This document shows positions 17,941-64,000 of a stretch of 64,000 nucleotides of DNA, in pieces. The position numbers and the translations under genes are program-made. The stretch is taken from assembly GCA_947561715.1 (NCBI GenBank), contig OX387199.1:21209001-21273000 (forward strand), in the 5' to 3' direction. The notes under the pieces were generated by a model that did not search any database, was not told where the DNA came from, and saw only the letters and a list, made by a program, of their open reading frames with translations. Numbering within the stretch: the stretch's first letter is position 1; the number at the start of each line of letters is the position of its first letter. This stretch comes from Ascidia mentula. Lineage: Eukaryota > Chordata > Ascidiacea > Phlebobranchia > Ascidiidae.

Positions 17941-18202
17941 GTTGAAATGTCTATTTGATTCCTTAATTTTCACCTTAATGTTGAACGCCACAGCATCATT
18001 TATATGGTGGATAATAAAGACCAAACTGCACGATATCAACAGCGAACTGTTTTAGATTGCAGAGTTTAAATTCAATCCAAACGATCCCTGATAAACCTGC
18101 GTTAAAATGACTTTGGGAATGACAAAAACTTTGTTTTTGTCCACCTGCTGACGTTCTGCAACGTCATTCTCTGTTAAGCAAAGAGGAGCCTATAATATGC
18201 AT

Positions 18203-18259
18203 TGTGTAAGCTGCATATTGATGACCACTGTTTTGACCTAAAAGGTCTCATCAGTGCAG
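18203..18259 (-). ncRNA. Decayed hammerhead, 57-nt unit
   Basis: This copy has the same 57-nt length and boundaries as the insertion at 60700-60756. CTGATGA, stem II (GACC/GGTC) and stem I (TGCAGC) are kept. GAAA has become AAAA, and the stem III/cleavage region CTGTC has become AATAT, so self-cleavage is not expected. Confidence 0.65.
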
Positions 18260-19367
18260 CTGGTGTGACTTTCAGACGACTTTGCTGACCAAATGACCAA
18301 GCAAAGACTTCCACTTTGTGGTGACTATACAATTACCGTCATCCGTTGGGCACCAAACTTGGTGCAACTTCGCGGAGAAAACAAGGTGGAAACACTATGG
18401 CCAAGCAAAGCTCAACCAATAGTGCCGTCAGGCCCCGTGTCACAATAGTCATATGATAAGCAAAGTGGAGCCAATAATATGAAGTCTTTGCTTGTTTAAA
18501 TTCGATGTCTAGTGCATTTTTTTGTTCTGCTGCACTAACTTGATGTACTTGTCTATAGAATATTTGAAACATGGTTGAAATTTAGCGAATCGCATCCACA
18601 GTGCACCGCTGTATTGTTACATAACGGATTGTCACAATCTTCGCTAACACCTTTTTTGGAGTTTCAGGAAAATACCGACTCTTGGTGCACAACAACGTGG
18701 TTTTCAAGAATTGTCGTTCACAAGTTTGTATTTCGTGTAAAATTTGTCAAAGCAAAACATACATCTCATTCGTAAACTGCATTCAGCATATGTATTTTCT
18801 TTTTTTTTGACCACAAACGTTTCGCAACTTTGCGCTTTGTTTACTGCACTGACATTGCTCTACTCGTTGCAACAAGCTATTAACACACAGCATGTGTTAG
18901 GTGATAGGTTGGTTTGTCAGGGAACATAACTATGTTTAGTTTAGCTACACAACTATGTGCTGCACAACTATCTATAATTGCACAACGTTATTCAGACCCT
19001 TATTTGAAAGCCATTCTGTTTCACCATCTGTAATCACATAGGCATATTAAACTATTAAATAATCTGAAAATGTTCAGACATTCGCATGGATTTACAACTC
19101 AAAGCATCTCAACTCTGCTGACGCAGTAACTTGAAAGGACCAGACAAACTTCTGGTGAAAATTTACTGCAGCTGCAGAAGTGTTTTTATAATATTGTACA
19201 GCGGCCGCCTTGCCCCGTATAATTATGATTTTGTTTATAAGTTAAAGAGTTTAAGTAATACTAAAGTCAGGAAATGGTCTCTGACTTAAATTGACAGCAA
19301 TTGATCATTGATGCTGCTGCCATTATCACTACAAAAAGCCTCTTCTGGCAATAGTGTTTATTAATAT

Positions 19368-40717: not shown

Positions 40718-43700
40718 CTATGAATTAGACAATGAGTTTAATCAGTCTTGTGACATCGAACTGCACTAATCTGGTTTAGCATTGTTTAAAGAGACTGATT
40801 TTATTTTCTAAAGCACACGAGCTTCTGTGAGAGATCCTCTCACTTCACCCACTTCAAATAAATATAACACCATGCAACGTGGATGTCTTTTACGCTATGA
40901 TCAAGCTCGTTGAAGTGTTATTATATGACCAATATTGGAATTTGTGTGCCTGCTAGTCTACCAGCTAGCACAGTGCCATATCAACAGCTGCACTGATGAG
41001 ACCTTACAGGTCGAAACAGTGCGTGTATACACCCTGTCTGCAGCTCTCATTGATTATTATGGCTCTTTTGCGCATATAATATGACCAATGTTGGTTTTAT
41101 GTCCATTCATTCGTTGTATCAGTCCTGTTTGTTCAAAATACAGAACGAGTAGGCAGCGTGCACATGTTATGATGTAAACGACGTTTGTATATGTGGCAAA
41201 ATCTCATCACCAGAAAAGGAGAACAAAAAAGGAGAGCCAAATTACATCCGGGTCATTGTTCTGCAAAAAAGTTAAGGAGAAAATACAAGACTTGCAAGGG
41301 AAACGGCCGAGCAACGCCACGTTGAACGCTTTAACTTTTTTCATGAGTCCCTACCCAAATTATTCCGCGGGACCGAACTGAACGACAACTTATCGTTTCT
41401 TGCCCTTTTCTTTTTCTGCGCATGTTTCCATATTGCATGATTTACATTTATTTAAAGTGGTAAGCGAGACGAACCCGCGAAAGCTCTAGAACCAATAGAA
41501 CTTACGTCTTTCATTGATGCCAAATAATTGGTGATTTCTTTCTCCAGTTGTACTTCATTTTTTTTCTTCAGACTCTCCTACATTGCAATGTTAAACAAAC
41601 TTATTAATGAACTTAAAATTTCAGAGAATCTGCGTCTCATAATATTTGCAATGCCAACAAACTTATTGCAGTAAGAATGTGGATAAATAACACGGTGCCT
41701 TCCTCCATATTACCAGTGTATGGATTCCAGACTTATTCTGGCTATATGTACTACGAGTTATTTGTTTTTACTGAAAGTTGTTTGTCTTTAACGACAATGA
41801 CTATTGTAAATCAAATTGTTATTGTGCTATATTAAATCGCCTTTAGCTCTGAGTTGTCATTCTTAACATCTTCATAATAATCATTGATGTTTTTCTCCAG
41901 TTTCTCATGTATAGATTTGTAATTTTTTTCCAAATCTTCCCGATAAAGTTCTTCGTACTCCAGCATTACACCTAACTTAATTTTCAGGTGAATCTCATGT
42001 AAACATGGTTCTGGCATACACGTTTGTACTTCCTGGTTCACAAAAAAAGGCGTTTATAAGATCAAAATCTCAAAAAACAATGTGGTAAATTCACTCATAC
42101 TCACATTTCTGATTCCTTGTTGGTATTTGCGGTGGCATTTGGTCATTTTATCTTGAAACTCTCGAATAGTTTTTTCCTGGTGAAAAGTATTGATAAGAAA
42201 TTGACCCCAAACAACAACTTGCTGCTAATTATAGCTTTTATATTTCATGCAAAACACAAGTCAGAAGACAGGATATATCTACAAACTATCTTCCAGATTA
42301 CATTCTTTATGTTTTTAAATTAAACACTTGTGGACTAACAACATGTAATATTCAGGATGACAACCTTTAATTCGTTGTTTTTTATTTCAATCATTTTAAA
42401 TTCCAAGTCGATCATTTTTTCAATATGTTTGCTGAATTTTTTTTCTTCGGAAACTTTTGTTGTATCATCCTTGCTGTCCTTGTGAGCTTCAATAAGTTTG
42501 TCTGCATCGATATATCCGCTGCCACACCGCTTCAAACATTAAATAAAACAATGATACAGAGGTTTAATAAAAATGGAACAATAAACTTGAATCTCACCAT
42601 TGACATTTTCTCTGTGTAAATTTTTTTTGCTTTTTTCATTGCATCAGACATTTTTTTCTGAAAAATAAAGAATAGGAATTTATTCCGCTTACTGATTTGG
42701 TTTTAATATATTAAATATTACGCTAATTTGTTGGTAGAAGGGTTTATTTTCTTCAATGTTTTTTTGAAGGTTTTCGCGTTCACTGTTTTTCCATTTTGTG
42801 TTGTTGCCAGTATCGGATTCATCAAACTTTTTGTTTGCTTTTTTCTTAGCGTCTTGGTGGACTGAATCAAAATCTTCGTCAGTGAGAACTTTTTCTCTGC
42901 ATTTCTGTGATAGATATTAATAAAAAAGGTATAGGAGATATTAACAGAAGTGCACACCGTTTCTACTGTGGCAACACGCATGTTTTCCCTGGCCTAGTTC
43001 TGACCACGCCGCATGTTTCCTGTAACTCAACAGTGGACCACCAGACGGAAAGTACACAGGCGGAATTAAGCCTTCCTGCAGAGCTGAAAACAAGCTGCTA
43101 ATACTCTGCTGGACAAACACATCTTTTCTGACACTTCGTTATAAAACGCCCATTTCGTAATCCTACTATAGGTCTCTCTCAGAGTCTGCTCTCCCTTGGT
43201 CATCATTCTCGTCATCGTGCTGTTACGTTCGCACGTTCTTTATCAGTTAATTCGCTGCAATTCAGACACGTGTTAAACTCTAGTTAAACGCGCTTGGAAC
43301 CAAACTTACTTTACGCCGCCTGGTATTACAAACGTGTGTTTCCATTAATAAAGAAGTCTGTTCACGGAGCGTTAAATTCAATAGTCTATATCAGCAAGAA
43401 CACGCAAATAGACTTTAGCTTCAGCAAAGCAGCCGACCGGGAATTAAATTTGCAAGCTGCACTACCTATAAAGTATGTTTACCACCTATACACTAATGGT
43501 CTCAGATCTTGCTGAAATGTAAGGAGGTGAAATAACCTAAATTTTGGAAATTTTACCTCGATCACCCAAATCAGTTATGTACCCAATTGGATCGACGTTG
43601 ATCGCAAGAAACCACCAAGTGGGAATTTGTGTGCCTGCTAGTTTAAAAAGCGAGTCCAGTGCCACAATAACCGACTGCACCGATGAGACGTGATAAGTCG

Positions 43701-46700
43701 AAACTTATAGATATGCAGCTCCAAATGATTGTGATTGCTTTTTTGCAAATAAAATAGTTTACCTCTGTAGATAATTTGCAATTACTCACCTCATCCATTA
43801 TGCTTCTGTAAATATCAATGGAAGTTTGTGCTTCAGTTTCAAGTTCCTTCTTCAGTTTTTCCTAAAACACAATCTTCATGTAATAAACTCTGTCAGACAA
43901 ACCAACTTGCGAATTAACTACATGTAATTAATACACAACTTTTAATACAGATTTTAAACAAACAGTTTATTACACTAAAAGTGCATGTGGAAGAATTGAA
44001 AACGAAAATATTTCAAGAAAAAATGATCAAATTTTAGCAATTTTTGGCGAAAAAAGTAGTTTGAAACGGCTGCAGGTTTCTGAGATACCGCTGATTAAAG
44101 TTATGTTTGAACCTTTGCAAACGTGATCGTGTCGGATAATTGTTGCATGATGTTTTAGAAGGAGTTATGGTGGTACAGAAACTGCCAGAGAGTCTTATGC
44201 GTATGAATTAAAACCAGTGTAAAACTGCTTTGGTAGTTTTGTATTGAACAGAAGCACAACAAGTGAACAAGTGCAACAAACGAATTTTTTTTATTGTTTT
44301 TTTTATTGTTTTTTTGAGCTGCAGACAGATGGCCAGTGTTCCGATCTATTAGATCTTATTCACGTAATAATAAAGCTTTACTAGGACAGGGTATTTTTTT
44401 AGTAAGTCAAAGTATTTATGATTTGTAACGCCTTCACAAAAGCACCACTGGGAGCAAAAAGACTAGCCGCTCTTAGTTTATTTATGGCGTCAATTTGTAA
44501 TTATTGAAGCATTTTTGCTTTGTAAAAGATAAGTAATTATTTTTTTAGGCGTAACCTACGGGTTTCAGTTAATTCATAAGTGATTCGAATAATTCATCCG
44601 CATTTCTACGTCCAGTACGCCTCGTGTATGAGCACTTGCAACCTACCTAAGCGCAGTGGGGAGATTCTGACAATTTTGCGATTGCATGATACATTACTAC
44701 GTTATTTGATTATAGTGGTAGAGTTATCCTACGTATATGTAAAGGTTTCCTGGCAAAGTTGTGCGCTTGCACATTTGTGTATCTTGGTCACAAATCACAA
44801 TACACCCCGTGAAACTGCTGAGCGTTGGAGTTTGTAAGCCCAGGGTCGTGAGTTCAAACCTCACCGGGAGCTTGATTTTTCAAATCTCGCTTCGATTTGG
44901 GGTTTAGGACCTTTAATCTAGTGGCTATTTCAAACAACATTTAATCAAAATTGTCATCTGCGCACCAAAATACTCACAATATTTATTGTGTTTTCTTTTT
45001 GAAACCGTTGACACAGCTTAGTCAACAAATCTTCTAATTGTCTGTCGGGTTTAAGATCAAGTCCGTAGGGGAGATCTTTTGTCAAATTCTTGAAAGATTG
45101 AATGCTTTTTAGCCGACATCGTTTCTCAATCTCTGCAAATTGAGTCTCTTCTACACATTGTTCATTTACCACCTGAAAATCAAATCACTAAAGTTAAATA
45201 AATACTTTCTGGTTGCGTTTCTGCGATTGTGGTATATTGCAATAAATTTCCATACACGGAATAAATTTTGTGAATCAAAACTTTTAAAACAAAATTTGTT
45301 AGTACAGTAAATCAATGCATTCAATTCAACAAATTCACAATCACATAACTTCGTTTAGAATCAAACAATTAAAAGTATTCAGGATTACTGTCGCATAATT
45401 TGATAAACAAAATGAGGGGAGAATCTTACTTTCTGCATTTCCACTTTGTACTTTTCTTTGGCTTCCCTCACAGCATCGTTAATAATCGTGTTCTTTAAAC
45501 CAAGTTTGCATGTTAAATTACCAGGTGAAAGTCGGTACGTTTAATTGTGTCGGAGGAACAACTTAATCAAAACACAATATGTCTGGCAGAAACCGCAACA
45601 AAATCACAAATAGTTACTAAGTTTCCACAAACCAGATTAATTTCGTTTATTTTTTTGAACACGACAAACTCCAAATCCATGTTTTTAACCAAACTTTTCC
45701 GGTACTTGGCAAGAAACTCAGGGTCACCAAGATGTCGTTTGCCATCGAAGTTTTTCAGAACTTCTGCTTTTAAGCTTTCGTGTTTCTCTTTGAAGGCAAT
45801 TTGATTGTGACATTGGTTATCACAAAACTGCACAGAACGCAAAGGGAAGTCTTAAACTGTTCTAGCAACTTAATAAGAAATTGAAATTACCTTGTTCATT
45901 TGTTGTTTATAGCTATTTGAGCATTCTGAAATGGCATGTAAAGCTATGTTTTCTGCTTGCGCCTGAACACCAAAATGTAACAAATATTTTTTGATTAACT
46001 TCCTGTGACAGGAGAACTACAATTCAATACAATTATCATCGAGGGAAGTAGATAAAAGTTATTGACATTTTACATATTACTAAGTGTCTGACTTCTTAAT
46101 CCAACAGAAAAATTACTGAGCAACAAACAACGTTTATTTGTTGATGAATAAATTTTAAATTACATTAAATTGTGTCCATTCTCGTTTGTTATGTGGATTC
46201 ACGCAATCAAAGCTATTACCTGTGCTATCCCCTTAACATCAGGCATTTTCCCATTGTTCAGTGCTTTAAAGTAAGACAAGCTTAAGTTGATAAGATCAGT
46301 TCCTGTAACTGGATTACCGTTGACTTTCTTTATTATAACTTGTTTCCTTGAAAATATTCTTTTGACCAATATGTCGAGGGTGGCAATAAATTCATTTCTA
46401 ACATCTGCATCATTTAAAGAAAACAATGGTTTAAAAAACATTGCTAATATGTTTAAAAAATTTAACATTTTTTTTCTAAACTTGCAAATGTTACCTTTTA
46501 GTTGAAGTTGACTTCCTTGCATTTTTCCTCTTTCAGCAACTTTTTCTCCTGGTTGTTTGATCAAAAAACAAGAGATGTTTTCAAAAGCATCACGCAAGCC
46601 CTTCCGAACTGATTCAACTTCTGGTTGTTCTGAAGGGGTTGTCAAGATTTTCTGAAGATATTTCACACCACCATCGAAATCACATTCGTAATCTGTGTCT

Positions 46701-48864
46701 CCCCAGTCACGAATAAGAAACATCAAGTGCTTGAAATAAAGTTGAAATAATTTTTTAGGAACAAACCAAATACTCCAATTTGGCGCTTCTGGCAATAATT
46801 TTATTACATCATCGTTCGGTTGCTATTCAGCAGCCTTCATCAGGATGTAGAAAAGTGAGAATAACACAACGTGGACAATCTGAGAAAAACTTTAGAATCG
46901 AAAAAGAACAAAAAAGAAGAATGACAAAGAAAGGTGGAAAGAAACAAAATCTTCACTACAATTGTCGGCAACCTTAAACATATTATCAATATGTTTTCTG
47001 TACACAAGGTGCAGGGACAAAATTGCCTGACTGGTGTCTGTACACTGGGGAAACAGGAAATGTTGTAAATCACGCCCCTCGTGGGTGCAGTGTGTACATT
47101 GAGGAAACTGGCCATGCGCTGAGAACAGCGCATAACACCAGCGGGACGTGCCCAATCACGAAGAAAATACGACTCTCTGTCACCACGCAGCCGAAACTGG
47201 ACACATGAATTACGAATCTGTCAGGTACAAGAGAATATTTATGGCGTAGTTGAATATAAATGCGCATGCGTCATTGCTCAATGACAGAAAATAAACACTT
47301 TTTCCCCCAGTTTCTCACACTTGTCAGGCAATTCTGCCCCTGCACCTCGCGCACACCAGAAACAGTGATAACCAGTGGTTGCCGATTGTCCAAGTTGTAT
47401 TGTTTTGTACATTCACAGAAGGCTGTTGCATAGCAACTAAAACCATGGATGTAATTAAATTGTTGCAAGAAGATCGTTTTCATGCAGAATGGCACGAAAA
47501 AGTTCAGTAACCTGAAAAGATGTTGTGATGTTTTGCGGTTTGTTCTTGTCAGTTTTATTCGATCCAAACATCGTCTGCATGGGGGCCTGCAAAACCTTTT
47601 TGGTCTGGTTGATTTGTTTTTTTAAATGATCCATCCAATAAGCACTCTTTGCGTATTGTGTAAAAAGCTGTTATAATAGTGAGTATATTGCAAAGATTAA
47701 GTTAATTTGTGTCATCTTCACTTTGTCTAACCTGAAGATGTTGTAAATGGTCCCCTTGGACTTGTTTAGACACATTATAAATTTGAAGCGAGCTCATCAA
47801 AGTGCTGAATGCAAATACGAAGGAACAACCTTTGACTGAGTCATGATGATCAAAAGATCCTTGGGAGTCCAGAAGGAATAGGGCAACCTATAAACACAAT
47901 GCATATGTTTACGCTGCGAAAGCGTTTATAATATTTAACAATTGCCCACAACGCAAATCTTTTTACTACTTTTGTTTGTTGTGTATCAATGAAAAACGGC
48001 TCATCCCAAATCCAAATTCCTTGTGTGTGTCTTTCGCCACCACCTCGCCATGCAAATCCTTCAATCAATTCATCTTCTTTGGAATCAAGCCATGAATCTG
48101 ACTGTTGTGAGAAACAGAAAAAAATGATTTAAACATCTTCTTCGAGTTTGTAAAATACTATTACAATGTATTCTGTGCCGCAGTTTCGATTCCGGCCAAG
48201 AGAAGTAGCTTGTACTGTGTATCACTATTTTCTGTACCTTGTTATTTTTTGCTGCCCACAGATATCGCAGAAAGAAGTTCAACATGAAGGATTTTCCTCC
48301 CCTGAAAGCCCCAGCGATTGAATAGATCGCAACCGGTGTGTTGGCCACAGGTGGATGTCCAAATATTCGTACAAGTTCAGCAGCATCGACTTCAAAAATA
48401 TTGTTTTTTTGTGGAACTGGTCGAAGTATTTGTACTGCTCTGTGTTTTTGTAGAGTACAACTGGGGTCTGGAAAGCAATTTTTTCATTTGTGAAAACTTC
48501 GATAACTCGCCATACAAAGGGTGGAACAATTTTCATCGAGAGTTTGTGTGACTAATGACTTTACAAGATGTAAATGTTAATTACGTAATGAACCTTCAAA
48601 AAAACCCTAGATAAAGTATGTGTAACTAATGACTTTCGTTGCAACAGTTGAGTAAATATGAAGTAAGCTAAATGAGAAACTATCCAATTAACATCGATTG
48701 CATAAAAGTTTCCAGGTTGTGGATCAAATATTTGTTGTTGTCGAATACCGCTGCATTCTTGACAAAGTTTGAAATAGCTGAGACCTAAATTTAAACACTG
48801 CTTGCTTCATTGGGATTAGCCAACAATGTAAGAGAACCTACTTACCCCCTTCCGCAGAAGACAT
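40313..48864 (-). CDS. Gene B: atlastin-like GTPase with six helical repeats and a Gly/Ala-rich tail
   Basis: Hand-built exons, 5' to 3': 48864-48846, 48467-48238, 48101-47970, 47887-47732, 47667-47512, 46729-46495, 46404-46220, 45962-45891, 45827-45633, 45492-45430, 45172-44978, 43861-43790, 42904-42722, 42657-42598, 42529-42365, 42176-42105, 42032-41841, 41577-41506, 40717-40313. The sum is 2859 nt (952 residues). G1 is GAFRGGKS, G3 LLDSQGSFDH and the RD site FLIRDW, all as in atlastins. Six short/long exon pairs follow. The last exon adds VSGLVKGAVEGAAVSG and a charged end. There is no ZU5. Oddity: after 41841 the expected GT donor reads GC, and read-through stops at 41832. The last two exons may therefore be cut off. 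Confidence 0.8.
40814..40850 (-). ncRNA. Decayed PLE-type hammerhead motif with paired changes in stem II
   Basis: It aligns to the motif at 10573-10612. CTGATGA is lost (GGTGA), but stem II survives as GTGAGAG/CTCTCAC, with the C-to-T change on one side matched on the other. GAAGCTCGTG is retained. Confidence 0.45.
40986..41045 (+). ncRNA. Hammerhead ribozyme, intact core
   Basis: Stem I is AGCTGCA (40986-40992) with TGCAGCT (41039-41045), 7 bp. The core is CTGATGA (40993-40999). Stem II is GACC/GGTC with loop TTACA. GAAA lies at 41013-41016. Stem III starts CAG/CTG and carries an inner GTG/CAC helix. The cleavage triplet GTC lies at 41036-41038. All invariant positions are present. It lies in the last intron of gene B, antisense to the gene, so cleavage would not affect the gene B pre-mRNA. 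Its upstream flank (GGAATTTGTGTGCCTGCTAGT-like) recurs before the decayed copy at 43673. Confidence 0.85.
41255..41495 (+). mobile_element. PLE relic: endonuclease C-terminus plus decayed hammerhead
   Basis: Frame 41283-41380 reads LARETAEQRHVERFNFF, matching RETAEQRHIEKF of the foldback at 10.7-11.2 kb. About 80 bp downstream on the same strand, AAGCGAGACGAACCCGCG followed by AAAGCTC is a decayed hammerhead with stem II and GAAA. The spacing and order are the same as at 10.6 kb. Confidence 0.65.
43673..43720 (+). ncRNA. Decayed hammerhead copy
   Basis: CTGCAC, CGATGA (core T changed to C), stem II GAC/GTC, GAAA and TGCAGCT are readable. The stem III strand and the GTC triplet are lost. It is preceded by the same AATTTGTGTGCCTGCTAGT flank as the intact copy at 40986. 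Confidence 0.6.
44316..44364 (-). ncRNA. Half-preserved hammerhead copy
   Basis: The 3' half (ACTGGCCATCTGTCTGCAGCT) is as in the 60.7-kb insertion. Stem II is GATC/GATC with loop TAATA. The 5' strand of stem I and CTGATGA are replaced. Confidence 0.5.
44800..44875 (+). mobile_element. tRNA-derived SINE fragment
   Basis: The B-box-like GAGTTCAAACCTCACCGGGAG is shared with the minus-strand element at 17180-17345. The upstream part differs, so only the 3' tRNA-like end is common. Confidence 0.4.
46797..47210. mobile_element. PLE relic in gene B intron 5, with hammerhead-like motif
   Basis: Minus strand 46805-46849: CTGATGA, stem II with TGC/GCA and GG/CC, GAA (one A short) and a perfect 6-bp stem I (TACATC/GATGTA). 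Plus strand 47023-47208: LYTGETGNVV and VYIEETGHALR, resembling the VYIGETG start of GIY-YIG endonucleases in PLEs. The parts are in opposite orientation, so the relic is rearranged. Confidence 0.5.
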
Positions 48865-48954: not shown

Positions 48955-51090
48955 AGTAACAATTACTCCTCAAAAAGGCACAAAATTTCTGTTGATCAAC
49001 CGTTTCCCGTCAAAAAGCTTGCGTTCATTGTATGGATCTGACCTGACTGGCGTCAAAGACTTTATAAATATTCTTGGGTCATATTGCAGTTTTGTCATCA
49101 GTTTTTTGAAAACAACTCAATATACTGGATGGAAAACTACACTTACTACGTTTAAAAAATCTAACATCCAATTTACAAAATGCTAATATACGCTTGCCTT
49201 ACATCCAAGCTGGTGCTCCGCTACACCATTGAACAATTCTACAACATTGCGACTTAAGTCAATGTGACAAATGCCGTCGGTAAAAAGGGGAACTAATGCT
49301 GTGATGGTGTTGGTCGTGGAATGAATACGACGTTGTAATTATGACGTAAAGGTAATTGGTGGAGGCATTGCGTGTTTAATGGGCCGTTGAAAATGGTTGA
49401 AGCAAAATCTAATTTGCTTCCGGCTCTGAAACCCCTTCTTGACGGTCAAAGCACACAAGGTAACTTGCGATATAATTATTTTTGCACGGCTTACGTTTTG
49501 ACATTACATGATCTAAAAATAGTTAGTAATTTTTTAATCTAGGTAAAGTATCGACAAAATTTGACCGAGTGTTACTCGACTTAAACAACGCAATAAAAGT
49601 AAGTCTACAGCAAACCTCGATTAGTGGCCCGATACAGTACATCTTTAATACATTTGTCAACATACGAATAGTCACGGGCTATAACGACATACGCGACACA
49701 GACGTCCTGATCTGTTAAAACTAGCAGTATTCGTTTTAGAATCTCGCCATTTTACCAAGTTGAAGGGCACGTAATCGTGAAGGAACAAAATTGATCGCGT
49801 TAGACATGTTTGTCGGTGCATCGAAAAGCTGCGGAATAATAAAATACACATTATATAATCGTGACCTTTTCGGCGTCAAATGAACTACCGAAGCACACTT
49901 ATCGTAGAGGGGTTGATATAGACTCTCGTGCTTCACCAAACCTTACAAATAATATCTGCACTATCGTCATCGACGCTCCTTAACGAAGCAACAATGTCGG
50001 CAATATTGTATATTCAAAAACCTTAGATTCGTATTTCGAGGCGTTGTTTACAATGCGTTAATATATGGTTTGATGTTGCATTTGAATGCTGGTTGGCTAC
50101 TTTGGAAAGCTAACCAAAACGATAAGACCAATATCACGTGATTGTTCTCAAGTCATTTGTGCAACTTATACACAAAGTTGCGCATTCTTCAAACCTTCTC
50201 CAAACCACATACAAACGTGAGGGAGTCAAATAAACCTAACCTTAAATAACTAGGCAGTGAGCTCTTTCATAATTGCGCAACGTTATTTAGACCCTTATTT
50301 GTTCTGATTTGTTTTGGATTTTTTGCAAAACACTTTGAAAATTCTGAGAATACAGAGACTGGCCAAAACTGTTGTTAACGTTGATATGTTTCATGTACGA
50401 AAAATATTTCAGCAAGAACTTATGCCATCATCAGTTTGAATGACGCGGTTGGTGGAACTCCATCATTGTATGGATCTGACCTGAGTGACGCCAAAGACTT
50501 CAAAAATATTCTTGGATCATTTTGCAGTTTTGTCATCGGTTTTTTAAAAACAACTCAACATACAGAATGGAAAACTACAGTTACTACGTTAAAAAAACTA
50601 ACTTCCAATTTAATTCTAATATACGCTTGCCTCCCATCCAAGTTGGTGTTGCGCTACACCATTGAACAATTCCACAACATTGCGACATACGTGAATATGA
50701 TAAATGCCGTCGGTAAAAAGGGGAACTAATGCTGTGATGGTGTTGGTCGTGGAATGAATACAACGTTGTAACTATGACGTAAAGGTAATTGGTGGAGGCA
50801 TTGAGTGTTAAATGGGCCGTTGGAAATGGTTGAAGCAAAATCTAATTTGTTTCCGGCTCTGAAACCCTTGCTTGACGTTCGAAGCACACAAAGTAACTTG
50901 CGATATAATTATTTTTTGCACGGCTTACGTTTTGACATTACATGATCTAAAAATAGTTAGTAATTTTTTAATCTAGGTAATGTGTCGATAAAAGATGAGT
51001 TTTTGTTATCCCGACATTAACAACCCAATTATGGCTAGTCTACAGCAAGCCCCGATTATCGGCACGATACAGTACACATTTAAACTCTAT
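48955..51090 (+). repeat. Diverged satellite copies (one full, one partial)
   Basis: The landmark ATTGTATGGATCTGACCTGA occurs at 49026 and 50463, one period apart. The order of all other landmarks equals that of the array after 57.25 kb. The second copy breaks off near 51090. Confidence 0.8.
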
Positions 51091-51119
51091 AGGCGAGACG
51101 CCCTGCCCACATTGAATTT

Positions 51120-52560
51120 GAGGTATCAATACCTGATAAAGGCAAGCGAGACGTCATGACAATACAGCACGTATATTTTATGCCAGAAGAGCAGTACATT
51201 ATAAATTGCAATATGCCTGGCAACAACAATAACAAATCCAACAATAATCTTCTTCGACATCTTCCAATGATTTATTTCACTTTAATCTGTATTAAAGCTA
51301 TCAAGGAAAAAACATAACTAAATAAATCGACGTAGGTGTACTTATTTGTTTAGTGTTCACCTCAATCCCTATGAATATCACATCGCTTTGACATTACCAA
51401 GTGTTGGTGCCCATACTTTGCAGGACGAAGAAATTGACGTTGTGTCACAGGATTGGGATCTTGCTACGTTCTCAATTCTTTTTCGAAAGTTTTGGTTTAA
51501 ACAGTGTATGTATTGGCACCGAAAAAACGCAGCTTAAAACAGGAACAATACGTATAAATAATTCACAGAACATTGGCATCATTTTGATATGTTTTGGAGA
51601 AAAGACAGTCACTTACATCTATGATGGGCTGGACGGTTGATTACGAAACAACAACTTGAAACTTTTTAGAAAACAACAACACGTACACCAAGGTATAACC
51701 TTTTCTGGACGTAGAACGCGTCTTTACCTCCCTTTCTTAACTTGGTTATAAAACAATCGATCTCATTAAAATTTCTATGTTTAATCGCTGTTTTCTAGAC
51801 GCGTATTTCCATCACCCAGCAACGGTTTTCAAAAAGTATTTTGCACGGGGACGCAAACAGACATTGAATGTGATTCAGACTTCCATAGTAGTCTAGGGAA
51901 GCTTAACTCCAAAGTCAATGCGATTACGGTTTCGCAAGAAGCGACTTGATCAACGTTTAGACCTCGCATAATGCGCAATCCACACAAGCGTAGGGCGACG
52001 AGCTTCGTGAGCGCAACAAAACTAACAGAATAATAGAAAACCTTGAATCCGCACACCGTGGGAGTGCATAATCGTCCACCCACTCTTGCGCGCTAACTCA
52101 CAAGGCACGGTGTGGAAGAAAAATTCCAACTTATTCACGTGCTCTTTACAGAAACTATATAAGAAACAACAAATCTATGGTCATACCAACATGTCATTCG
52201 TTTTGTCTTCTTTCTATGACTTGACGTTTACTTCATGGATCTTACTTCACAATTCCCGGTTCAGACGTTTAAAATTATAAATTAACGAATCATTGGTGTA
52301 AACCCGAGGCGAAATTAGGTTCCAATTCTAAGGAAAAACTTTATCCAATCGCTGGATTTACAAGAAGTGGCAGAAAATTCCAGGTTAAGACGTTTCTTAC
52401 CCAGTGGGAAATTACACCTGTCGAAGGTTGTCCTGCGGTAAGCTCCTACGCTAAAATGCGACCAAAACCCACCTTTTACCCGTGAGTCTAAAAATGGCAA
52501 CGCGTATTGTACGTTTTCACTAATTAGATCTCTACCAACTTTAAGCAACATAACATTGTT
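51120..52560. repeat. Composite dispersed repeat, copy 3
   Basis: 51120-51500 is the reverse complement of 19685-20110. 51500-52560 is in direct orientation with 20440-21360. It interrupts the satellite copies. Confidence 0.65.
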
Positions 52561-52869
52561 AAAATATACTTATTCTCTGTTTACTGTATTAACCACTAGA
52601 GCATGTGACACCGTGATTTCATATCTCAGTCGTTTAGCGTGCAGTGACAGAATAGCTGGTTAATCGTTCATGCGCAACGTAGGCAAATCACTTGTTTAAT
52701 GTAAAGTTTTAATAAAACAATTAAATCTTTACTTTGATAAGGACGGTGCAAAATCATTTTGTTTGACGAGAAAAATGGGTTTGTATCTGATAATTCTTTT
52801 CGCGCCGTTTGAAAGGGTTAAGCGCGTAGAATGCTCTGGTTTAAATTGTTTGCCAGCGAATCTTGTTTT

Positions 52870-53889
52870 CGCATCTTCTGGTTAGATGTTGCATTCCAAT
52901 GCTGGTTGTCTACTTTGGAAAGCAAACGAAAAGATTAAAAACAAAATTAGTCTCCGGAGACGACAAACCCAAGAATTCCACAACATTGCGACACAAGTCT
53001 GTATAACCAATGTCGTCGGTGAAAAAGGGAACTAATGTTGTTATAGGCGTTGATCGTGGAGTGCATACAACGCTGTAGTTGGGGCGTGAAGGTATTTGGT
53101 GGAGGCATTGTGGGTTACATGCGCCGTTGCAAAACTGTGAAACAGCCTGATTGGCTTTGAAGGCGCATGAAGTACGTTCTCACACAGTTTATCACCGTGA
53201 TTACCACAATATGTCACTCATGGAGCGACAAAGAAAACAAATCGTAGCTAACCCTGCGAACACGACAGAACAGAAGAATTACGGAATAGTGAAATACACA
53301 TTATATAAACGTGACCTTCTTGGTGCCAAATGAACTACTGAAGCTCACTTATCGTAGAGGGGTGGATAGACTCTTGTACTTCACCAAACCTTACATGTGA
53401 TCTCTGCACTATCGTCATCGACGCTCCATAACGAAGCAACAAAGTTGGCAATATTGTATATTTAAAAAACCTTAATTCGTATTTCGAAGCGTTGTTTACA
53501 CTGCGGTTACATCTGGGAAGATGTTACATTCCAATGCAAGTTGACTAGACCGGAAAGCTTACGAAAACATAAAGACCAAAATCACTTCCCCAAACCACAC
53601 ACAAACGAGAGAGAGCCAATTAAACCTAAACTTAAATAAGTAGACAGTGCGCTCTTTTATAATTCGTACAACGTTACTCTGGCGATTTTTTTTCTGATGG
53701 CTTTGGGAATATTTGCAAAACATTTTATAAATATTCTTGAATCAATTTGCAGTTTAGGAATCAATAAACTAACCCAAGATACTGGACGGAAAACTACACT
53801 TACTACATTTGAGAAACTTAGTTTACAAAATTTTAATAAACGCATGTCTCTCATGCAAGTTTGTACACCCCTACACCATCGCAAACAAT
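52870..53889 (+). repeat. Diverged and deleted satellite copy
   Basis: Starts around GTTAGATGTTGCATTCCAATGC and ends at the left border of the gypsy element. Several internal deletions are visible relative to the array unit. Confidence 0.65.
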
Positions 53890-54478
53890 TGTTTATTAGT
53901 TATGTAACGAATTTTATTTACTCCACGTCACCTTTTACTTTTGTTAGTTATTGTTATTGTTTGTATTTCATTGTTTTCACCTTTCTTCCTGTCACCTTGT
54001 AATTTCACTGTTTTCTTTCGTTGGTACCACTTTATTTAATATATTGTTTTACCCACGCATATTGCTTTTAAGTCTCGCACTTCACTTATTTTCACCACAC
54101 TATTTTATTATCTTCGTCTCCCCTCCCTTTCCTATTATTTAACGCTCCGCTTATTTTTGTATGCCCCGGATGTGCCGGCGTCACGTTGGTAACACCTCTA
54201 GTACAGTGTTGTGTGTTAGCAATCGGGATCTTGGCCAGTAACGTTTCGTATTGTTTTTAATCGTCTTGATTTAACACGACGTCCAATAAGTTACATCAGC
54301 CTGGGTTACTTTGGCTTAGTGGTGAGCCGTTAATGCAGGGTTTTTCGCAGTATCAGAATTAGGGAGGCAGTTTTGTGAAAAGTACCGAATTAGGTAGAAG
54401 GGTTAATTGGGGAATAATATTGCCACCCAAAAACACCTAACCGCTTAATTGCAAAGCTGCCGAAATAATTCCGTAACA
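53890..54478 (+). repeat. 5' LTR of second gypsy element (about 589 bp)
   Basis: Begins TGTTTATT exactly where the satellite sequence stops (after GAACAAT-like sequence) and ends CCGTAACA, giving TGTT/AACA ends. Two bases later TTGGCGAGCACGCC is a plausible tRNA primer-binding site. The matching 3' LTR is missing, so the ends are provisional. Confidence 0.55.
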
Positions 54479-54588: not shown

Positions 54589-57250
54589 ATGGCTTTTAAT
54601 GTTTTAATGCAACCTCCGCCTTTACGGCCGGGAGATGACCTAGGACCGTATTTTGATGTATTTGAGTCCTATTGTACGAGCGTCGAGGCATCAGAAGTAA
54701 TGAAACCACACCTGTTCCTGGCAAGCGTTGACAACGACTTGAAATGGACAATACAAGAAAAGACGCAAACTTGTTCGAGGTTTCCTACAAGGACCTCAAA
54801 GAACGCGCATTGCGCCAAAGGGCTACTGGTCAACACGCAGAGCGTCAACGCGCCGAGCTGGTAAGGCGCGTGCAATTACCTGGCGAATCCGCACGTGAAT
54901 TCGTTTACGCCCTACAGACACTGGGCGATGGTGCCTACAGCAACTCCGCTGACGCTGCCCTTAAAAATGAGGTTCTGTACGCTACCTTACTGCAAGACTT
55001 GCAAGACCGGCGCCTCGCGGACACTATCCCGAATACCATCCAATATGAGCGATCATTCAGAGCCGCAGCTCAAGTCGTTGTCAATACACAAACACTGAGC
55101 TTTGTCCAAGTCGCTGCGGTAAACACAAAAGCATCAGAGATGGGATTAGTACTAAAAAAGTTAGAAGACATGGAGAAACGTTCCAAGAAAAAGAAGCACA
55201 ACTCGAGGACACCTTATCGAAGTTACAAGCTCAATTGGATGCCATAAAGCGCGAACGACCACAGTACAACAACGTGCGAACACGGACTTGCTATGGTTGC
55301 GGTGGACTTGGCCATATGCGGCGCGACTGCCCGCACACGGGTATGCGAACAAGGGACGTCAACACGAGAGGTCAAAACATACCACGTACGCCTTCGTTTT
55401 CCAAAGTGATTCGTCGCGCACCGGAGATAAAATGTCACTTCGACCAAAAACGTATAGCTCGAGATGCACCAAAATGTTTGGCGCCAAAGTCGGTGCAAAA
55501 ATCCGCTACACCCGCCGCGCCGTTGTGGTTTGTCAAATTATTGGTCGGCCAGACGAGGATGTGTGCGTTGTTGGACACCGGCTCCAGTGTCTGCTTGATT
55601 AATATCCTAAAGTGGCATTCCTTAAGCGCCGAGCAGCATGACCAGGTAAACAGGTGCTCAAAGAAGAACTTAGTCGGGGCCGGCGGACAGCAATTGGCGG
55701 TAAAAGGCTGCGTCGAGCTTCCCCTCCGAGTGGGAGGATTGATGACTCACGCGAGTTTTTACATTGTAGACAATCTTACGCACGAACTTATTCTAGGATT
55801 AGATTTCCTCCAGTCAAACAAATGCCAGATCTGCTACGAAGCCAACGTGCTAACAACAGGGGATGCAAGCGTGCTACTCTCGCATTCTCCGGTGCCGTTG
55901 CCACAACCTTCCGAGGTGTACGTCGTCGACGATGTCACCATCCCCGCGTTTACCGAGGTATGTGTAACAGCAAACTTTTGCCAAAAGCCGCACACCAGGG
56001 AAACCCCTTTTCTAACTGAGAAGATAGACGGGTTTGTGGAAAAATATGGGTTGTTGACGGCTAAGAGTATAACGATGGCGCAGAGTAACACTGTTGGGGT
56101 CTATGGCGCGAATTTGGGGGACGAAGCGGTATAAATATCAAGCGGGTCAAGGATCGCCCAGGCATCGCCTGTTTAGGTTTTGCCTTTGGCAATGTCGAAT
56201 GTCCAATGTCTGGCGCATGTGTGGTAGTCGATGGATCGTCGGCGAAATGTAAACACCCGGATTGTTTTGGCGGCTGCGCTGAAATTTGTTCGGTGTCGCC
56301 ACACAAAACAGCGGATAACCGTGACCCGTTTAAGTGCATTATAAAGCAAGCTCACATCGGAAACCACCTAACTGAAGAACAAAGAGAAGAGCTGCTTGCC
56401 CTTCTTCGCTCCAACCAGGACGCCTTCTCAACATCTGACGTGGACCTTGGACGTACGGACGTGGACACGTGATCGACACAGGAAATAACGCTCCAGTGCG
56501 ACAGCCACCCCGCCGCATGCCCCACAACAACAAGGCGAAAGTGGAAGAGATTTTGGCAGAAATGGACAAACAAGGACTGATTCGGCCGTCTAAATCGCCG
56601 TGGAGCAGTCCGATCGTGTTGGTTCGGAAGAAATCCGGTGAGACTCGTTTTTGTGTCGATTATCGCAAGCTAAACGAGCTAACTAAAAAGAACAGATATC
56701 CGATCCCCCGGATAGATGACAGCCTAGACCAAATGTCGAACGCGGCGTATTTTTATACGCTAGACCTGAAATCTGGCTATTGGCAGGTCGCCATCGATGC
56801 CCCTTCGCAAGAGAAAACTGCGTTTACCAGTCACGTCGGCCTGTTTGAATTTAACGTAATGCCTATGAGTCTATGTAATTCGGCAGCGACCTTTCAACGC
56901 TTAATGCGCATGGTATTAAGCGGAATCGAGTGGCGGGGTGCCTTAGCGTATCTGGATGACATTATTGTTTACTCCAATACTTTCGAGCAACACTTAAATC
57001 GACTAGCTGACGTCCGAGAGAGAATTCAAACCGCGGGGCTGTTAAAGCCGTCTAAGTGTTCGCTTTTCAAAGAGGAGGTGGCTTTTTTAGGTCACGTATT
57101 GTCGAAGGACGGAATACGATGCGACCCCAAAAAAGTACAGTCGGTTTCCCACACCGCGTAATGTGAAGGAGATCCGGCAGTTTTTAGGCCTAAAATCCTA
57201 CTATCGCAAATTTATTCGAGACTATGCAAAGATCGCAGGTCCCCTCCACA
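54589..57250 (+). pseudogene. Gypsy element 2: broken gag, protease and partial RT
   Basis: Gag starts at 54589 and shifts frame near 54744. A CCHC zinc knuckle (CYGCGGLGHMRRDC) lies near 55290 and a protease DTGS site near 55575. Stops at 56134 and near 56472 separate these from RT (56469-57161), whose YLDD is at about 56950. The frame breaks again near 57150. RNase H, integrase and the 3' LTR are absent: the element ends at about 57250, where satellite DNA resumes. Confidence 0.85.
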
Positions 57251-60200
57251 GGCAAACTCCAAACCTTCTCCAAACCACATACAAATGTGAGAGAGTCAAT
57301 TAAACCTAACCTGAAATAACTAGGCAGTGAGCTCTTTCATAATTGCACAACGTTATTCAGACCCTTATTTGTTCTGATTTGTTTTTGGATTTTTTGCAAA
57401 ACAAAATTCTGAGAATACTGAGTCTGGCCAAAACTGTTGTTAACATTGTCATGTTTTATGTACGAAAAACATTTCGGCAAGAACATATCCCATTATCAGT
57501 TTGAATGACGCGGTTGGTGCAGCTCCATCATTGTATGGATCTAACCTGACTGACGTCAAAGACTTCAAAAATAATCTTGGATCATTTTTGCAGTTTTGTC
57601 ATCGGTTTTTTAAAAACAACTCAATTTACTGAATGGAAAACTACACTTACAACGTTCAAAAAACCTAACTTTCAATTTACAAAATGCTAATATACGCTTG
57701 CATCACATCCAAGCTGGTGCTCCGCTACACCATTGAACAATTCCGCAACATTGCGGCATACGTGAATATGACAAATGCCGTGGGTAAAAAGAGGAACTAA
57801 TGCTGTGAAGTTGTTGGTCGTGGAATGAATACAACGTTGTAATTATGACGTAAAGGTAATTGGTGGAGGCATTGAGTGTTAAATGGGCCGTTGGAAATGG
57901 TTGAAGCAAAATCTAATTTGCTTCCGGCTCTGAAAACCCTGCTTGGACTTCAAAGCACACAAGGTAACTTGCGATATAATTATTTTTGCACGGCTTACGT
58001 TTTCACATTGCATGATCTAAAAATAGTTAGTAATTTTTGTAATCTAGGTGAAGTGTCGATGAAATATGACCTAGTGTTACACGACATAAACAATCCAATA
58101 AAAGTAAGTCTGCAGCAAACCTCGATTAGTGGCCCGATACAGTACATCTTTAATACATTTGTCAACGTAGGAATAGTCGCTGACTAGAACGACATACGCG
58201 ACACAGACATCCTGATCTGTTAAACCTAACAGTATTCGTTTCAGAAACTCGCCATTTTACCAAGTTGAAGGACGCGTAATCGCGAAAAATCATAATTGAT
58301 CGCATTAGTTATGTTTGTCGGTGCTTCGAAAAGTTGCGGAATGATAAAGAAATACACATATAATAATCGTGACCTTCTCGGTGCCAAATGAACTACTAAA
58401 GCACACTTATCGTAGGGGGATTGATAGACTGTCGTGCCTCACCACCAAACCTTACAAGTAATCTCTGCGCTATCGTCATCGACGCTCCATAACGAAGCAA
58501 CAAAGTCGGCAATATTGTATATTTAAAAACCCTCAATTCGTATTTCGAGGCGCTGTTTACAATGCGTTAATATATGGTTAGATGTTGCATTTCAATGCTG
58601 GTTGGCTACTTTGGAAAGCTAACGAAAACGAAAAGACCAAAATCACGTGGTTGCTCTCAAGTTATTTGTGCAATTTATACACAAAGTTACGCATTTTTCA
58701 AACCATCTCCAAACCACACACAAACGAGAGAGCGTCAATTAAACCTAACCTTAAAAACTAGGAGGCAGTGAGTTCTTTCATAATTGCACAACGTTATTCA
58801 GACCCTTATTTGTTCTGATTTGTTTTGTATTTTTTGCAAAACAATTTGAAAATTCTGAGAATACAGAGTCTGGCCAAAACTGTTGTTAACATTGTCATGT
58901 TTTATGTACGAAAAACATTTCGGCAAGAACATATCCCATTATCAGTTTGAATGACGCGGTTGGTGCAGCTCCATCATTGTATGGATCTAACCTGACTGAC
59001 GTCAAAGACTTCAAAAATAATCTTGGATCATTTTTGCAGTTTTGTCATCGGTTTTCTAAAAACAACTCAATTTACTGAATGGAAAACTACCCCTACTACG
59101 TTCAAAAAACCTAACTTTCAATTTACAAAATTCTAATATGCGCTTGCCTCACATCCAAGCTGGTGCTCTGCTACACCATTGAACAATTCCACAACATTGC
59201 GACATACGTGAATATGACAAATGCCGTCGGTAAAAAGAGGAACTAATGTTGTAATGGTGTTGGTCGTGGAATGAATACAACGTTATAATGATGACGTAAC
59301 GCTAATTGGTGGAGGCATTAAGTGTTAAATGGGCCGTTGGAAATGGTTGAAGCAAAATCTAATTTGCTTCCGGCTCTGAAAACCCTGCTTGAACTTCAAA
59401 GCACACAAGGTAACTTGCGATATAATTATTTTTGCACGGCTTACGTTTTCACATTACATGATCCAAAAATAGTTAGTAATTTTTTAATTTAGGTAATGTG
59501 TCGATGAAATATGACTTTGCGTTACACGACATAAACAACCCAATAAAAGTAAGTCTGCAGCAAACCTCGATTAGTGGCCCGATACAGTACATCTTTAATA
59601 CATTTGTCAACGTAGGAATAGTCGCTGACTAGAACGACATACGCGACACAGACACACTAATCTGTTAAACCTAACAGTATTCGTTTCAGAAACTTGCCAT
59701 TTTACCAAGTTGAAGGACGCGTAATCGCGAAAAATCATAATTGATCGCATTAGTTATGTTTGTCGGTGCTTCGAAAAGCTGCGGAATGATAAAGAAATAC
59801 ACATAAAATAATCGTGACCTTCTCGGTGCCAAATGAACTACTAAAGCACACTTATCGTAGAGGGATTGATAGACTGTCGTGCCTCACCACCAAACCTTAC
59901 AAGTAATCTCTGCGCTATCGTCATCGACGCTCCATAACGAAGCAACAAAGTCGGCAATATTGTATATTTAAAAACCCTTAATTCGTATTTCGAGGCGCTG
60001 TTTACAATGCGTTAATATATGGTTAGATGTTGCATTTCAATGCTGGTTGGCTACTTTGGAAAGCTAACGAAAACGAAAAGACCAAAATCACGTGGTTGCT
60101 CTCAAGTTATTTGTGCAATTTATACACAAAGTTACGCATTTTTCAAACCTTCTCCAAACCACACACAAACGAGAGAGTGTCAATTAAACCTAACCTTAAA

Positions 60201-60685
60201 AACTAGGAGGCAGTGAGTTCTTTCATAATTGCACAACGTTATTCAGACCCTTATTTGTTCTGATTTGTTTTGGAATTTTTGCAAAACACTTTGAAAATTC
60301 TGAGAATACAGAGTCTGGCCAAAACTGTTGTTAACATTGTCATGTTTTATGTACGAAAAACATTTCGGCAAGAACTTATCCCATTATCAGTTTGAATGAC
60401 GCGGTTGGTGCAGCTCCATCATTGTATGGATCTAACCTGACTGACGTCAAAGACTTCAAAATATTCTTGGAACATTTTGCAGTTTTGTCATCGGTTTTTT
60501 AAAAACAACTCAATATACTGAATGGAAAACTACCCCTACTACGTTCAAAAAACCTAACTTTCAATTTACAAAATTCTAATATGCGCTTGCCTCACATCCA
60601 AGCTGGTGCTCCGCTACACCATTGAACAATTCCACAACATTGCGACATACGTGAATATGACAAATGCCGTCGGTAAAAAGAGGAA

Positions 60686-60770
60686 CTAATGTTGTAATGT
60701 GTATAAGCTGCAGACAGATGGCCACTGTTTCGACCTAAAAGGTCTCATCAGTGCAGCTAATGTTGTAATG
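60686..60770. mobile_element. 57-nt hammerhead insertion with 14-bp target-site duplication
   Basis: The sister units (near 59240 and 62195) read GGAACTAATGTTGTAATGGTG without interruption. In this unit the 14-mer occurs twice and brackets the 57 nt. This is the mark of an insertion event, not of unit divergence. Confidence 0.85.
60700..60756 (-). ncRNA. Hammerhead ribozyme inserted in one satellite unit
   Basis: Minus strand: stem I AGCTGCA/TGCAGCT (60752-60758 with 60706-60712), CTGATGA (60745-60751), stem II GACC/GGTC with loop TAAAA read on the plus strand, GAAA (60728-60731), stem III CAG/CTG with a 7-nt loop, and triplet GTC at 60713-60715. All core positions are canonical. The insert is flanked by CTAATGTTGTAATG on both sides (60686-60699 and 60757-60770); neighbouring units have this 14-mer once. 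Confidence 0.9.
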
Positions 60771-63700
60771 GTGTTGGTCGTGGAATGAATACAACGTTAT
60801 AATGATGACGTAACGTTAATTGGTGGAGGCATTAAGTGTTAAATGGGCCGTTGGAAATGGTTGAAGCAAAATCAAATTTGCTTCCGGCTCTGAAAACCCT
60901 GCTTGAACTTCAAAGCACACAAGGTAACTTGCGATATAATTATTTTTGCACGGCTTACGTTTTCACATTACATGATCCAAAAATAGTTAGTAATTTTTTA
61001 ATTTAGGTAATGTGTCGATGAAATATGACTTTGCGTTACACGACATAAACAACCCAATAAAAGTAAGTCTGCAGCAAACCTCGATTAGTGGCCCGATACA
61101 GTACATCTTTAACACATCTGTCAACGTGGGAATAGTCGCTGACTAGAACGACATACGCGACACAGACATCCTGATCTGTTAAACCTAACAGTATTCGTTT
61201 CAGAAACTCGCCATTTTACCAAGTTGAAGGGCGCGTAATCGCGAAAAATCATAATTGATCGCATTAGTTATGTTTGTCGGTGCTTCGAAAAGTTGAGGAA
61301 TGATAAAGAAATACACATAAAATAATCGTGACTTTCTCGGTACCAAATGAACTACTAAAGCACACTTATCGTAGGGGGATTGATAGACTGTCGTGCCTCA
61401 CCAAACCTTACAAGTAATCTCTGCGCTATCGTCATCGACGCTCCATAACGAAGCAACGAAGTCTGCAATATTGTATATTAAAAAACCCTTAATTCGTATT
61501 TCGAGGCGCTGTTTACAATGCGTTAATATATGGTTAGATGTTGCATTTCAATGCTGGTTGGCTACTTTGGAAAGCTAACGAAAACGAAAAGACCAAAATC
61601 ACGTGGTTGCTCTCAAGTTATTTGTGCAATTTATACTCAAAGTTATGCATTTTTCAAACCTTCTCCAAACCACACACAAACGAGAGAGTGTCAATTAAAC
61701 CTAACCTTAAAAACTAGGAGGCAGTGAGTTCTTTCATAATTGCACAACGTTATTCAGACCCTGATTTGTTCTGATTTGTTTTGGATTTTTTGCAAAACAC
61801 TTTGAAAATTCTGAGAATACTGAGGCTGGCCAAAACTGTTGTTAACATTGTCATGTTTTATGTACGAAAAACATTTCGGCAAGAACATATCCCATTATCA
61901 GTTTGAATGACGCGGTTGGTGCAGCTCCATCATTGTATGGATCTAACCTGACTGACGTCAAAGACTTCAAAATAATCTTGGAACATTTTGCAGTTTTGTC
62001 ATCGGTTTTTTGAAAACAACTCAATATACTGAATGGAAAACTACCCCTACTACGTTCAAAAAACCTAACTTTCAATTTACAAAATGCTAATATGCGCTTG
62101 CCTCACATCCAAGCTGGTGCTCCGCTACACCATTGAACAATTCCACAACATTGCGACATACGTGAATATGACAAATGCCGTCGGTAAAAAGAGGAACTAA
62201 TGTTGTAATGGTGTTGGTCGTGGAATGAATACAACGTTATAATGATGACGTAACGCTAATTGGTGGAGGCATTTAGTGTTAAATGGGCCGTTGGAAATGG
62301 TTGAAGCAAAATCTAATTTGCTTCCGGCTCTGAAAACCCTGCTTGAGCTTCAAAGCACACAAGGTAACTTGCGATATAATTATTTTTGCACGGCTTACGT
62401 TTTCACATTACATGATCCAAAAATAGTTAGTAATTTTTTAATTTAGGTAATGTGTCGATGAAATATGACTTTGCGTTACACGACATAAACAACCCAATAA
62501 AAGTAAGTCTGCAGCAAACCTCGATTAGTGGCCCGATACAGTACATCTTTAATACATTTGTCAACGTAGGAATAGTCGCTGACTAGAACGACATACGCGA
62601 CACAGACACACTAATCTGTTAAACCTAACAGTATTCGTTTTAGAAACTTGCCATTTTACCAAGTTGAAAGACGCGTAATCGCGAAAAATCATAATTGATC
62701 GCATTAGTTATGTTTGTCGGTGCTTCGAAAAGTTGCGGAATGATAAAGAAATACACATAAAATAATCGTGACCTTCTCGGTGCCAAATGAACTACTAAAG
62801 CACACTTATCGTAGAGGGATTGATAGACTGTCGTGCCTCACCACCAAACCTTACAAGTAATCTCTGCGCTATCGTCATCGACGCTCCATAACGAAGCAAC
62901 AAAGTCGGCAATATTGTATATTTAAAAACCCTTAATTCGTATTTCGAGGCGCTGTTTACAATGCGTTAATATATGGTTAGATGTTGCATTTCAATGCTGG
63001 TTCGCTACTTTGGAAAGCTAACGAAAACGAAAAGACCAAAATCACGTGGTTGCTCTCAAGTTATTTGTGCAATTTATACACAAAGTTACGCATTTTTCAA
63101 ACCTTCTCCAAACCACACACAAACGAGAGAGCGTCAATTAAACCTAACCTTAAATAACTAGGCAGTGAGTTCTTTCATAATTGCACAACGTTATTCAGAC
63201 CCTTATTTGTTCTGATTTGTTTGGGAATTTCTACAAAACACTTTGAAAATTCTGAGAATACAGAGGCTGGCCAAAACTGTTGTTAACATTGTCATGTTTC
63301 ATGTACGAAAATCATTTCGGCAAGAACTTATCTCATTATCAGTTTGAATGACGCGGTTGGTGCAGCTCCATCATTGTATGGATCCAACCTGACTGACGTC
63401 AAAGACTTTAAAAATATTCTAGAATCATTTTGCAGTTTGGTTATCGTTTTTTTAAAAACAACTCAAGATGCTGAAAGGAAAACTACACTAACTATATTTG
63501 GAAAACCAAATTTTTAATTTACAAAATTCTAATATACGTTTGCCTCACATCCAAGCTTGTACACTTGTACACCATTGAACAATTCCACAACATTGCGACA
63601 TAAGAAAATATGACAACTGCCGTCGGTAAAAACGGGAACTAATGTTGTGATGGTGTTGGTCGTGGAATGAATACAACGTTGTAATTATGACGTAACGGTA

Positions 63701-64000
63701 ATTGGTGGAGGCATTAAGTGTTATATGGGCCGTTGGAAATAGTTGAAGCAAAATCTAATTTGCTTCCGGATCTAAAAACCCTGCTTGAACTTCAAAGCAC
63801 ACAAGGTAACTTGCGATATAATTATTTTTGCACGGCTTACGTTTTCACATTGCATGATCTAAAAATAGTCAGTAATTATTGTAATCTAGGTGAAGTGTCG
63901 ATAAAATATGACCTAGTGTTACACGACATATAAACAACCCAATAAAAGTAAGTCTGCAGCAAACCTCGATTAGTGGCCCGATACAGTACATCTTTAATAC

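Follow-up and report, generated by a model that had tools for sequence, protein, structure and literature searches.

A short insert in a satellite array of the ascidian Ascidia mentula raises the question of what had moved there, a hammerhead ribozyme by itself or a piece of something larger. The original prediction, made on one stretch of 64,000 nt (the window), took the insert for a bare ribozyme that is a mobile unit of its own. Analysis of the window and of related copies in the genome led us to a different reading, to which we give a probability of roughly 0.8: the 57-nt insert would be a 5'-truncated copy of a 285-nt retrozyme, likely made in trans by a Penelope-type reverse transcriptase (RT) on circular or uncleaved RNA.

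The insert, its empty sites and the predicted ribozyme

The features at the insertion site and in the sister satellite units are as follows.

60686-60699, plus strand: left target-site duplication CTAATGTTGTAATG, from the sequence and comparison with sister units
60700-60756, minus strand: the insert, a truncated retrozyme copy of about unit positions 1-60 with start type A, from alignment to the reference unit
60706-60758, minus strand: predicted type I hammerhead ribozyme, from the sequence, fold energies and weak Rfam matches
60757-60770, plus strand: right target-site duplication, from the sequence and comparison with sister units
59243-59256, plus strand: empty site in a sister satellite unit, with the 14-mer present once and the insert absent
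62197-62210, plus strand: empty site in another sister unit, with the 14-mer present once and the insert absent

The 57-nt insert is flanked by identical 14-mers, and the sequence at 60686-60770 bore out the claimed insertion with a perfect 14-nt duplication. The true size of the duplication is 12-14 nt, as about 2 nt on each side can be assigned to either target or element. The claim of an empty site in sister units also held, for the units at 59243 and 62197 carry the single 14-mer without the insert, with about 98-99% identity on both sides of the insertion site. Units at 63639, 57797, 49293 and 50726 span the site without the insert as well and have more changes than these two. In no sister unit was the 14-mer found doubled without the insert, an arrangement that would speak against insertion. 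The satellite has a period of about 1.44 kb and lies in two blocks (about 49025-53890 and 57260-64000), the second of which runs beyond the window end. The insert had been ascribed to one satellite unit only; a second unit with the same 85 nt was found 4,390 bp further on, about 1 kb beyond the window end. The 3-kb surroundings of the two filled units are 95.6% identical, suggesting that the insertion was probably amplified or converted together with the satellite. A rearrangement of the satellite at the DNA level would fit the position of the site within a satellite and the presence of the insert in two units, but we consider it most improbable, since empty sister units are up to 99% identical and the same sequence occurs with duplications at many unrelated sites.

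On the minus strand, the sequence contains the complete hammerhead that had been proposed, with stem I (AGCTGCA/TGCAGCT), CTGATGA, stem II (GACC/GGTC), GAAA, stem III (CAG/CTG) and the GTC triplet, though stem III is short and weak, with 3-4 bp only. The final 2 nt of stem I belong to the right repeat too, so that the ribozyme reaches 60758. Cleavage is predicted between 60713 and 60712 (minus strand ...CTGTC/TGCAGCT), which lies between unit positions 15 and 16. The hammerhead structure has a fold energy of -15.1 kcal/mol versus -17.4 kcal/mol for the unconstrained minimum. Rfam searched at the curated threshold gave no match for the ribozyme of the insert, and the sub-threshold scores were 17.6-17.8 bits for two hammerhead families.

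The 285-nt parent element and its copies

Positions 60698-60757 were identical to the reference unit at 60 of 60 nt. This reference is one unit from the array at locus L080, which has an arm of about 6 units (about 1,680 nt), and the 285-bp spacing of tandem copies defines the unit length. By alignment, the insert is a cut-short copy of a retrozyme-like dispersed element of 285 nt with hundreds of genomic copies, and this element appears to be a new member of the metazoan retrozyme type. Its first 24 nt occur exactly 698 times in 195.8 Mb, while the 85-nt query gave 43 matches, with 40 of 789 first-look candidates scored. According to passages of PMC7229834, metazoan (non-LTR) retrozymes share with it a type I hammerhead (here CTGATGA, GAAA, the triplet and three stems by sequence, below the Rfam threshold and with the weak stem III), a unit of 170-400 nt (here the 285-nt spacing), tandem and dispersed copies, and duplications longer than 4 bp (here a median of 12 nt in 49 of 79 parsed matches). 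The retrozyme hammerhead has a short stem III, whereas the minimal Penelope form has none. Metazoan retrozymes are also expressed as self-cleaved linear and circular RNA, and such RNAs would be expected of the present family, which was read from genomic copies.

We then compared these copies with the view that the mobile unit is no more than a hammerhead monomer of about 57 nt. The insert is nearly coextensive with the ribozyme and has a perfect duplication, and its end point is shared by L028/L032 (65 nt, no duplication) and by L031 (tail and ribozyme, 88 nt, 7-nt repeat), all of which such a monomer would explain. Against it, the distal 26-mer of the ribozyme has 694 exact copies, and at least 653 of them proceed with G into the 285-nt unit; the longer shared flank that counts against a bare mobile unit was thus found for most copies, not for all 694. 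The other 41 have a non-G base after the 26-mer, and 30 of them were read: 10 proceed into the unit with an altered base, 13 join an inverted arm and 7 do otherwise. One of the 7, L045, was grouped by eye into a single event with L043, L044 and L046, which makes it a 14th inverted-arm joint, and the remaining 6 enter other sequence, two of them (L047/L048) being the window insert and its sister unit. In addition, the ends of one-armed copies are scattered, and the fixed end of the insert is start A (defined below) rather than the cleavage site. A mobile bare monomer is therefore very unlikely in our judgement.

For the truncated retrozyme copy, the edge of the ribozyme would be one end point among others. 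Copies stopping there among the 30 read were L031, L032, L047 and L048, with L037 and L050 ambiguous, and since such copies are few, the solo ribozyme is most likely a chance end point, most likely helped by the 2 nt of shared sequence. We do not claim the ribozyme edge as a strong hot spot, because 10 of the 30 read non-G copies simply continue, and a joint through the AGCT palindrome was seen in no more than two independent events, L039/L015 and L043-L046.

Three further hammerhead-related copies lie in the window.

18172-18483, minus strand: near full-length older family 1 copy, start type B (tailed), core broken, from alignment
44317-44359, minus strand: decayed fragment resembling family 1, unit 9-51, from alignment
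40934-41078, plus strand: truncated copy of a second retrozyme-like family, with a hammerhead stretch at 40987-41021 and 11-nt repeats

The first of these corrects the description of 18203-18259 as a homologous 57-nt block with the same ends. The block belongs to a longer match of 312 nt, which begins 31 nt before 18203 and extends rightward past 18259; its ribozyme core has AAAA instead of the required GAAA, and no target-site duplication was found for the 18172-18483 copy. The second-family copy is flanked by the 11-nt repeats ATATGACCAAT at 40923 and 41079. A 38-mer of this family had 1,063 genome matches at up to 2 mismatches, and some of the places listed lie near one another, inverted or in tandem, at a distance of about 290 bp. 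A decayed hammerhead-like fragment at 43675-43704 is by eye akin to the second family. A tail hairpin was tried and was not used: in family 1 it is slightly better than shuffles (18 of 500 fold as well), and in family 2 it is no better (205 of 500). The window also contains LTR-type retroelement pieces at 37277-38350 and 55049-57161, which carry an integrase core with a zinc-binding match below its cut-off, a zinc knuckle with aspartyl protease, and a reverse transcriptase. A protein kinase domain and a guanylate-binding domain were read in frames at 15806-16801 and 46199-46822 (minus strand). A protein search with a kinase-like frame gave no hit at 1e-60.

Starts, arms and templates of the insertions

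Insertion anatomy was parsed for 82 matches from 90 loci and the window, including some decayed and second-family matches, and the 79 whose piece reached 35 nt or more were kept, leaving out 3 shorter ones. The loci comprised the best matches to the 85-mer (L001-L030), copies chosen for a non-G base after the 26-mer (L031-L060) and the first 30 listed places of the 24-mer (L061-L090). We dropped BLAST pieces that scored below 28 bits, any match that came within 60 nt of the end of its locus, and repeated flanks; duplications were called with a finder of our own score at a cut of 5. As the search patterns called for either positions 1-24 or the distal part of the ribozyme, a copy that consists of nothing but an arm ending at 15 would have escaped them. 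The results showed a duplication above the cut in 49 of the 79 matches, with a median of 12 nt and 80% A+T, and no convincing duplication in the other 30.

Arms of the 49 duplicated insertions start at two fixed places, 44 at A, 34 at B and 2 elsewhere. Start A is unit position 1, just past the hammerhead, and B lies about 30 nt downstream in the RNA. The two exceptions (L041 and L052), each in one of 31 pairs, are the arms out of 80 that fall outside narrow borders (A 276-9, B 240-262); the borders were later widened to A 268-9 and B 238-263. The start-to-start distance had a median of 30 and a range of 14-41 (n = 31), matching the optional tail of 30-40 bp that two internal starts leave in Penelope-like elements. 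Ends are variable by comparison. Eighteen one-armed copies with duplication start at A (15) or B (3), and the ends of such copies spread over unit positions 50, 60, 98, 99, 100, 114 and 117 and on to 285 and beyond. The smallest duplicated copy (L069) has 51 nt and a perfect 12-nt duplication; for L061, with 38 nt, no duplication was found. Arms exceeding one unit measured 315 to 496 nt, in addition to the long arm of L080. In the window insert, the arm ends at the outer border of stem I, and the matching CT there comes from the target.

Two arms joined head to head were parsed in 41 insertions, so that, as far as genomic copies tell in place of an assay, both target strands were extended. Of these, 38 combine A with B and 3 have one arm unassigned (L033, L053 and L060, all without duplication); L012 and L076 have other arrangements and stand outside the 41. 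Under the widened borders, every two-armed insertion with a duplication was A+B (31/31). By sample, A+B made up 13/13, 15/18 and 10/10, and after collapsing shared flanks 35/38 overall and 30/30 with duplication, the latter being about 29 independent events, as L043-L046 are one event by eye. Independent starts at equal odds would give A+A or B+B in about half of the assignable pairs, and none was observed.

These numbers bear on whether the same retrozyme could have been moved by a LINE-type RT through twin priming, as in human L1. Insertions of L1, too, can be truncated at the 5' end, carry duplications in this size range and take an inverted two-arm form. Such a route nonetheless appears unlikely to us, given that the internal starts are two, fixed and spaced by about 30 nt, and that every duplicated two-armed copy uses each of them once. 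Passages of PMC11167929 describe the start-site pair and tail as unique to Penelope-like elements.

The template was approached through the two arms of each insertion. Arm-to-arm distance was not lower within than between insertions (15/28, p = 0.39), and one template per insertion, judged by this measure, was unsupported; an earlier figure of 2.6% within versus 5.0% between insertions had come from regions that were not matched. A test of minor alleles, run after this null result on 36 pairs (25 informative; L033, L043, L044, L046 and L074 left out), found 26 of 118 common to the arms of one insertion versus 8.9 expected, a value reached in 0 of 2000 permutations. This minor-allele sharing supports one template per insertion, while overall arm distance does not. 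As the insert spans the predicted cleavage site, a linear self-cleaved monomer is unlikely as template; primed at A, it would give only about 15 nt of cDNA, so a circle or an uncleaved multimer would be needed for the 57-nt insert and the longer arms.

Penelope elements and a proposed route for retrozyme mobilisation

Penelope elements are resident in this genome. At least 121 GIY-YIG matches were found (150 of 382 candidates scored), many of them in close pairs with the minus-strand copy first and the 3' ends outward, and one Penelope array has a 2,870-bp tandem period. Locus L094 has an open frame of 885 aa with RT and GIY-YIG domains. The protein has 990 relatives at E ≤ 1e-20, and among the 120 listed are named proteins of turtles, ticks, lancelets and molluscs. 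The outer ends were compared in three head-to-head Penelope pairs, and two of them (C67 and C72) show an anatomy like that of the retrozyme, with one tailed end about 34-40 nt longer than the other and flanks that match over 12 nt; in C67 up to 5 of these 12 nt are also in the element's end. In the third pair (C52, L095/L096), the two ends finish at an identical terminus, and no duplication adjoins them. A Penelope family with an 801-aa protein has a minimal hammerhead-like core ahead of its end. The sole significant match between retrozyme and Penelope loci was 52 nt of ribozyme at 83%, about 460 nt past the frame of L092, which may be an inserted copy. The Penelope element in L092 also has a hammerhead-like core of its own, nearer the frame than this stretch, and the places concerned are 944-993 and about 1280-1300.

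Taken from their insertion anatomy, the examined copies bear the marks of a Penelope-type RT, which is likely the mover. Passages of PMC11167929 and PMC3846280 attribute to GIY-YIG Penelope-like elements the paired adjacent RT starts and, resulting from them, an optional tail (about 30-40 bp); inverted copies placed head to head, targets rich in A+T, short duplications and a hammerhead are also shared, as far as these sources go. In contrast to Penelope-like elements, which encode RT and GIY-YIG, the 285-nt unit is too short for such a protein. In the passages on the lizard Penelope protein (Frangieh et al., PMC11167929), the enzyme cleaves both strands and extends each of them, and it can begin at either of two neighbouring internal sites. 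This choice of sites accounts for a 30-40-bp tail, and the hammerhead is dispensable for insertion in vitro. In Adineta vaga, a 31-bp tail is reported on one of the inverted Penelope ends (PMC3846280, in part). The same source describes non-Penelope sequence inserted in trans by a Penelope enzyme and solo pseudo-LTRs, with a duplication and an empty site in one trans case. What moved there, in the parts concerned, was pseudo-LTRs and a host gene, whereas here it would be a separate small element with hundreds of copies. Set against the Penelope reading are the 30 of 79 matches without convincing duplication, the weak stem III and sub-threshold Rfam scores, the arm distances that are no lower within insertions, the two arms outside the narrow start borders, the missing anatomy in C52, and the fetched Penelope 3' ends (L091-L105, few of the genome's families), none of which bears the retrozyme tail.

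We propose that the hammerheads of the transcript would cut it and the product would circularise, unless the transcript stayed uncut. A+T-rich DNA would then be cleaved by a Penelope RT/GIY-YIG protein with a stagger of about 12 bp, and the cut strands would prime cDNA at A or B, the two fixed places in the RNA. An arm would end after tens of nucleotides or several laps, and the ends would be joined, partly through short shared sequence. For the window insert, one arm would have begun at A, crossed the ribozyme over about 60 nt and reached the target at the shared CT. Mobilisation in trans by a Penelope-type RT, which the original prediction had also suggested, is now the best-supported route, from the starts, the tail and the A+B pairing. 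More tentatively, and with a chance we put somewhat below even, each two-armed insertion could come from a single dimeric Penelope RNP acting on a single RNA circle, with top-strand-primed RT at A and bottom-strand-primed RT at B.

The enzyme that moves animal retrozymes was an open question, and Penelope insertion marks bear on it. In passages of PMC7229834, Cervera and de la Pena name Penelope elements as a strong candidate for metazoan retrozymes; a review (PMC7761336) states that no conserved motif points to a helper, and later texts (PMC8969392 and PMC11722881, in part) hold that LINEs or Penelope elements may move retrozymes. The passages of PMC7229834 mention no start sites, two-armed copies or A+B pairing, and in the open-licence literature we found no prior insertion-level evidence for the retrozyme enzyme or for strict A+B pairing. 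The anatomy described here, read from genomic sequence, gives insertion-level support for Penelope as the mover. Since the two starts, the tail, both strands and the A+B pairing can be read from assemblies without RNA, the question of the enzyme can be put to the test in one species after another. The pairing rule has a bearing, too, on integration by Penelope RTs, which are relatives of telomerase. If the dimeric model is true, both RNP subunits would travel around one hammerhead circle, for less than a full lap or for several. The strict rule of one A plus one B would then be the trace left by a reverse transcriptase with two heads, and some of its shortest products would be solo hammerheads.
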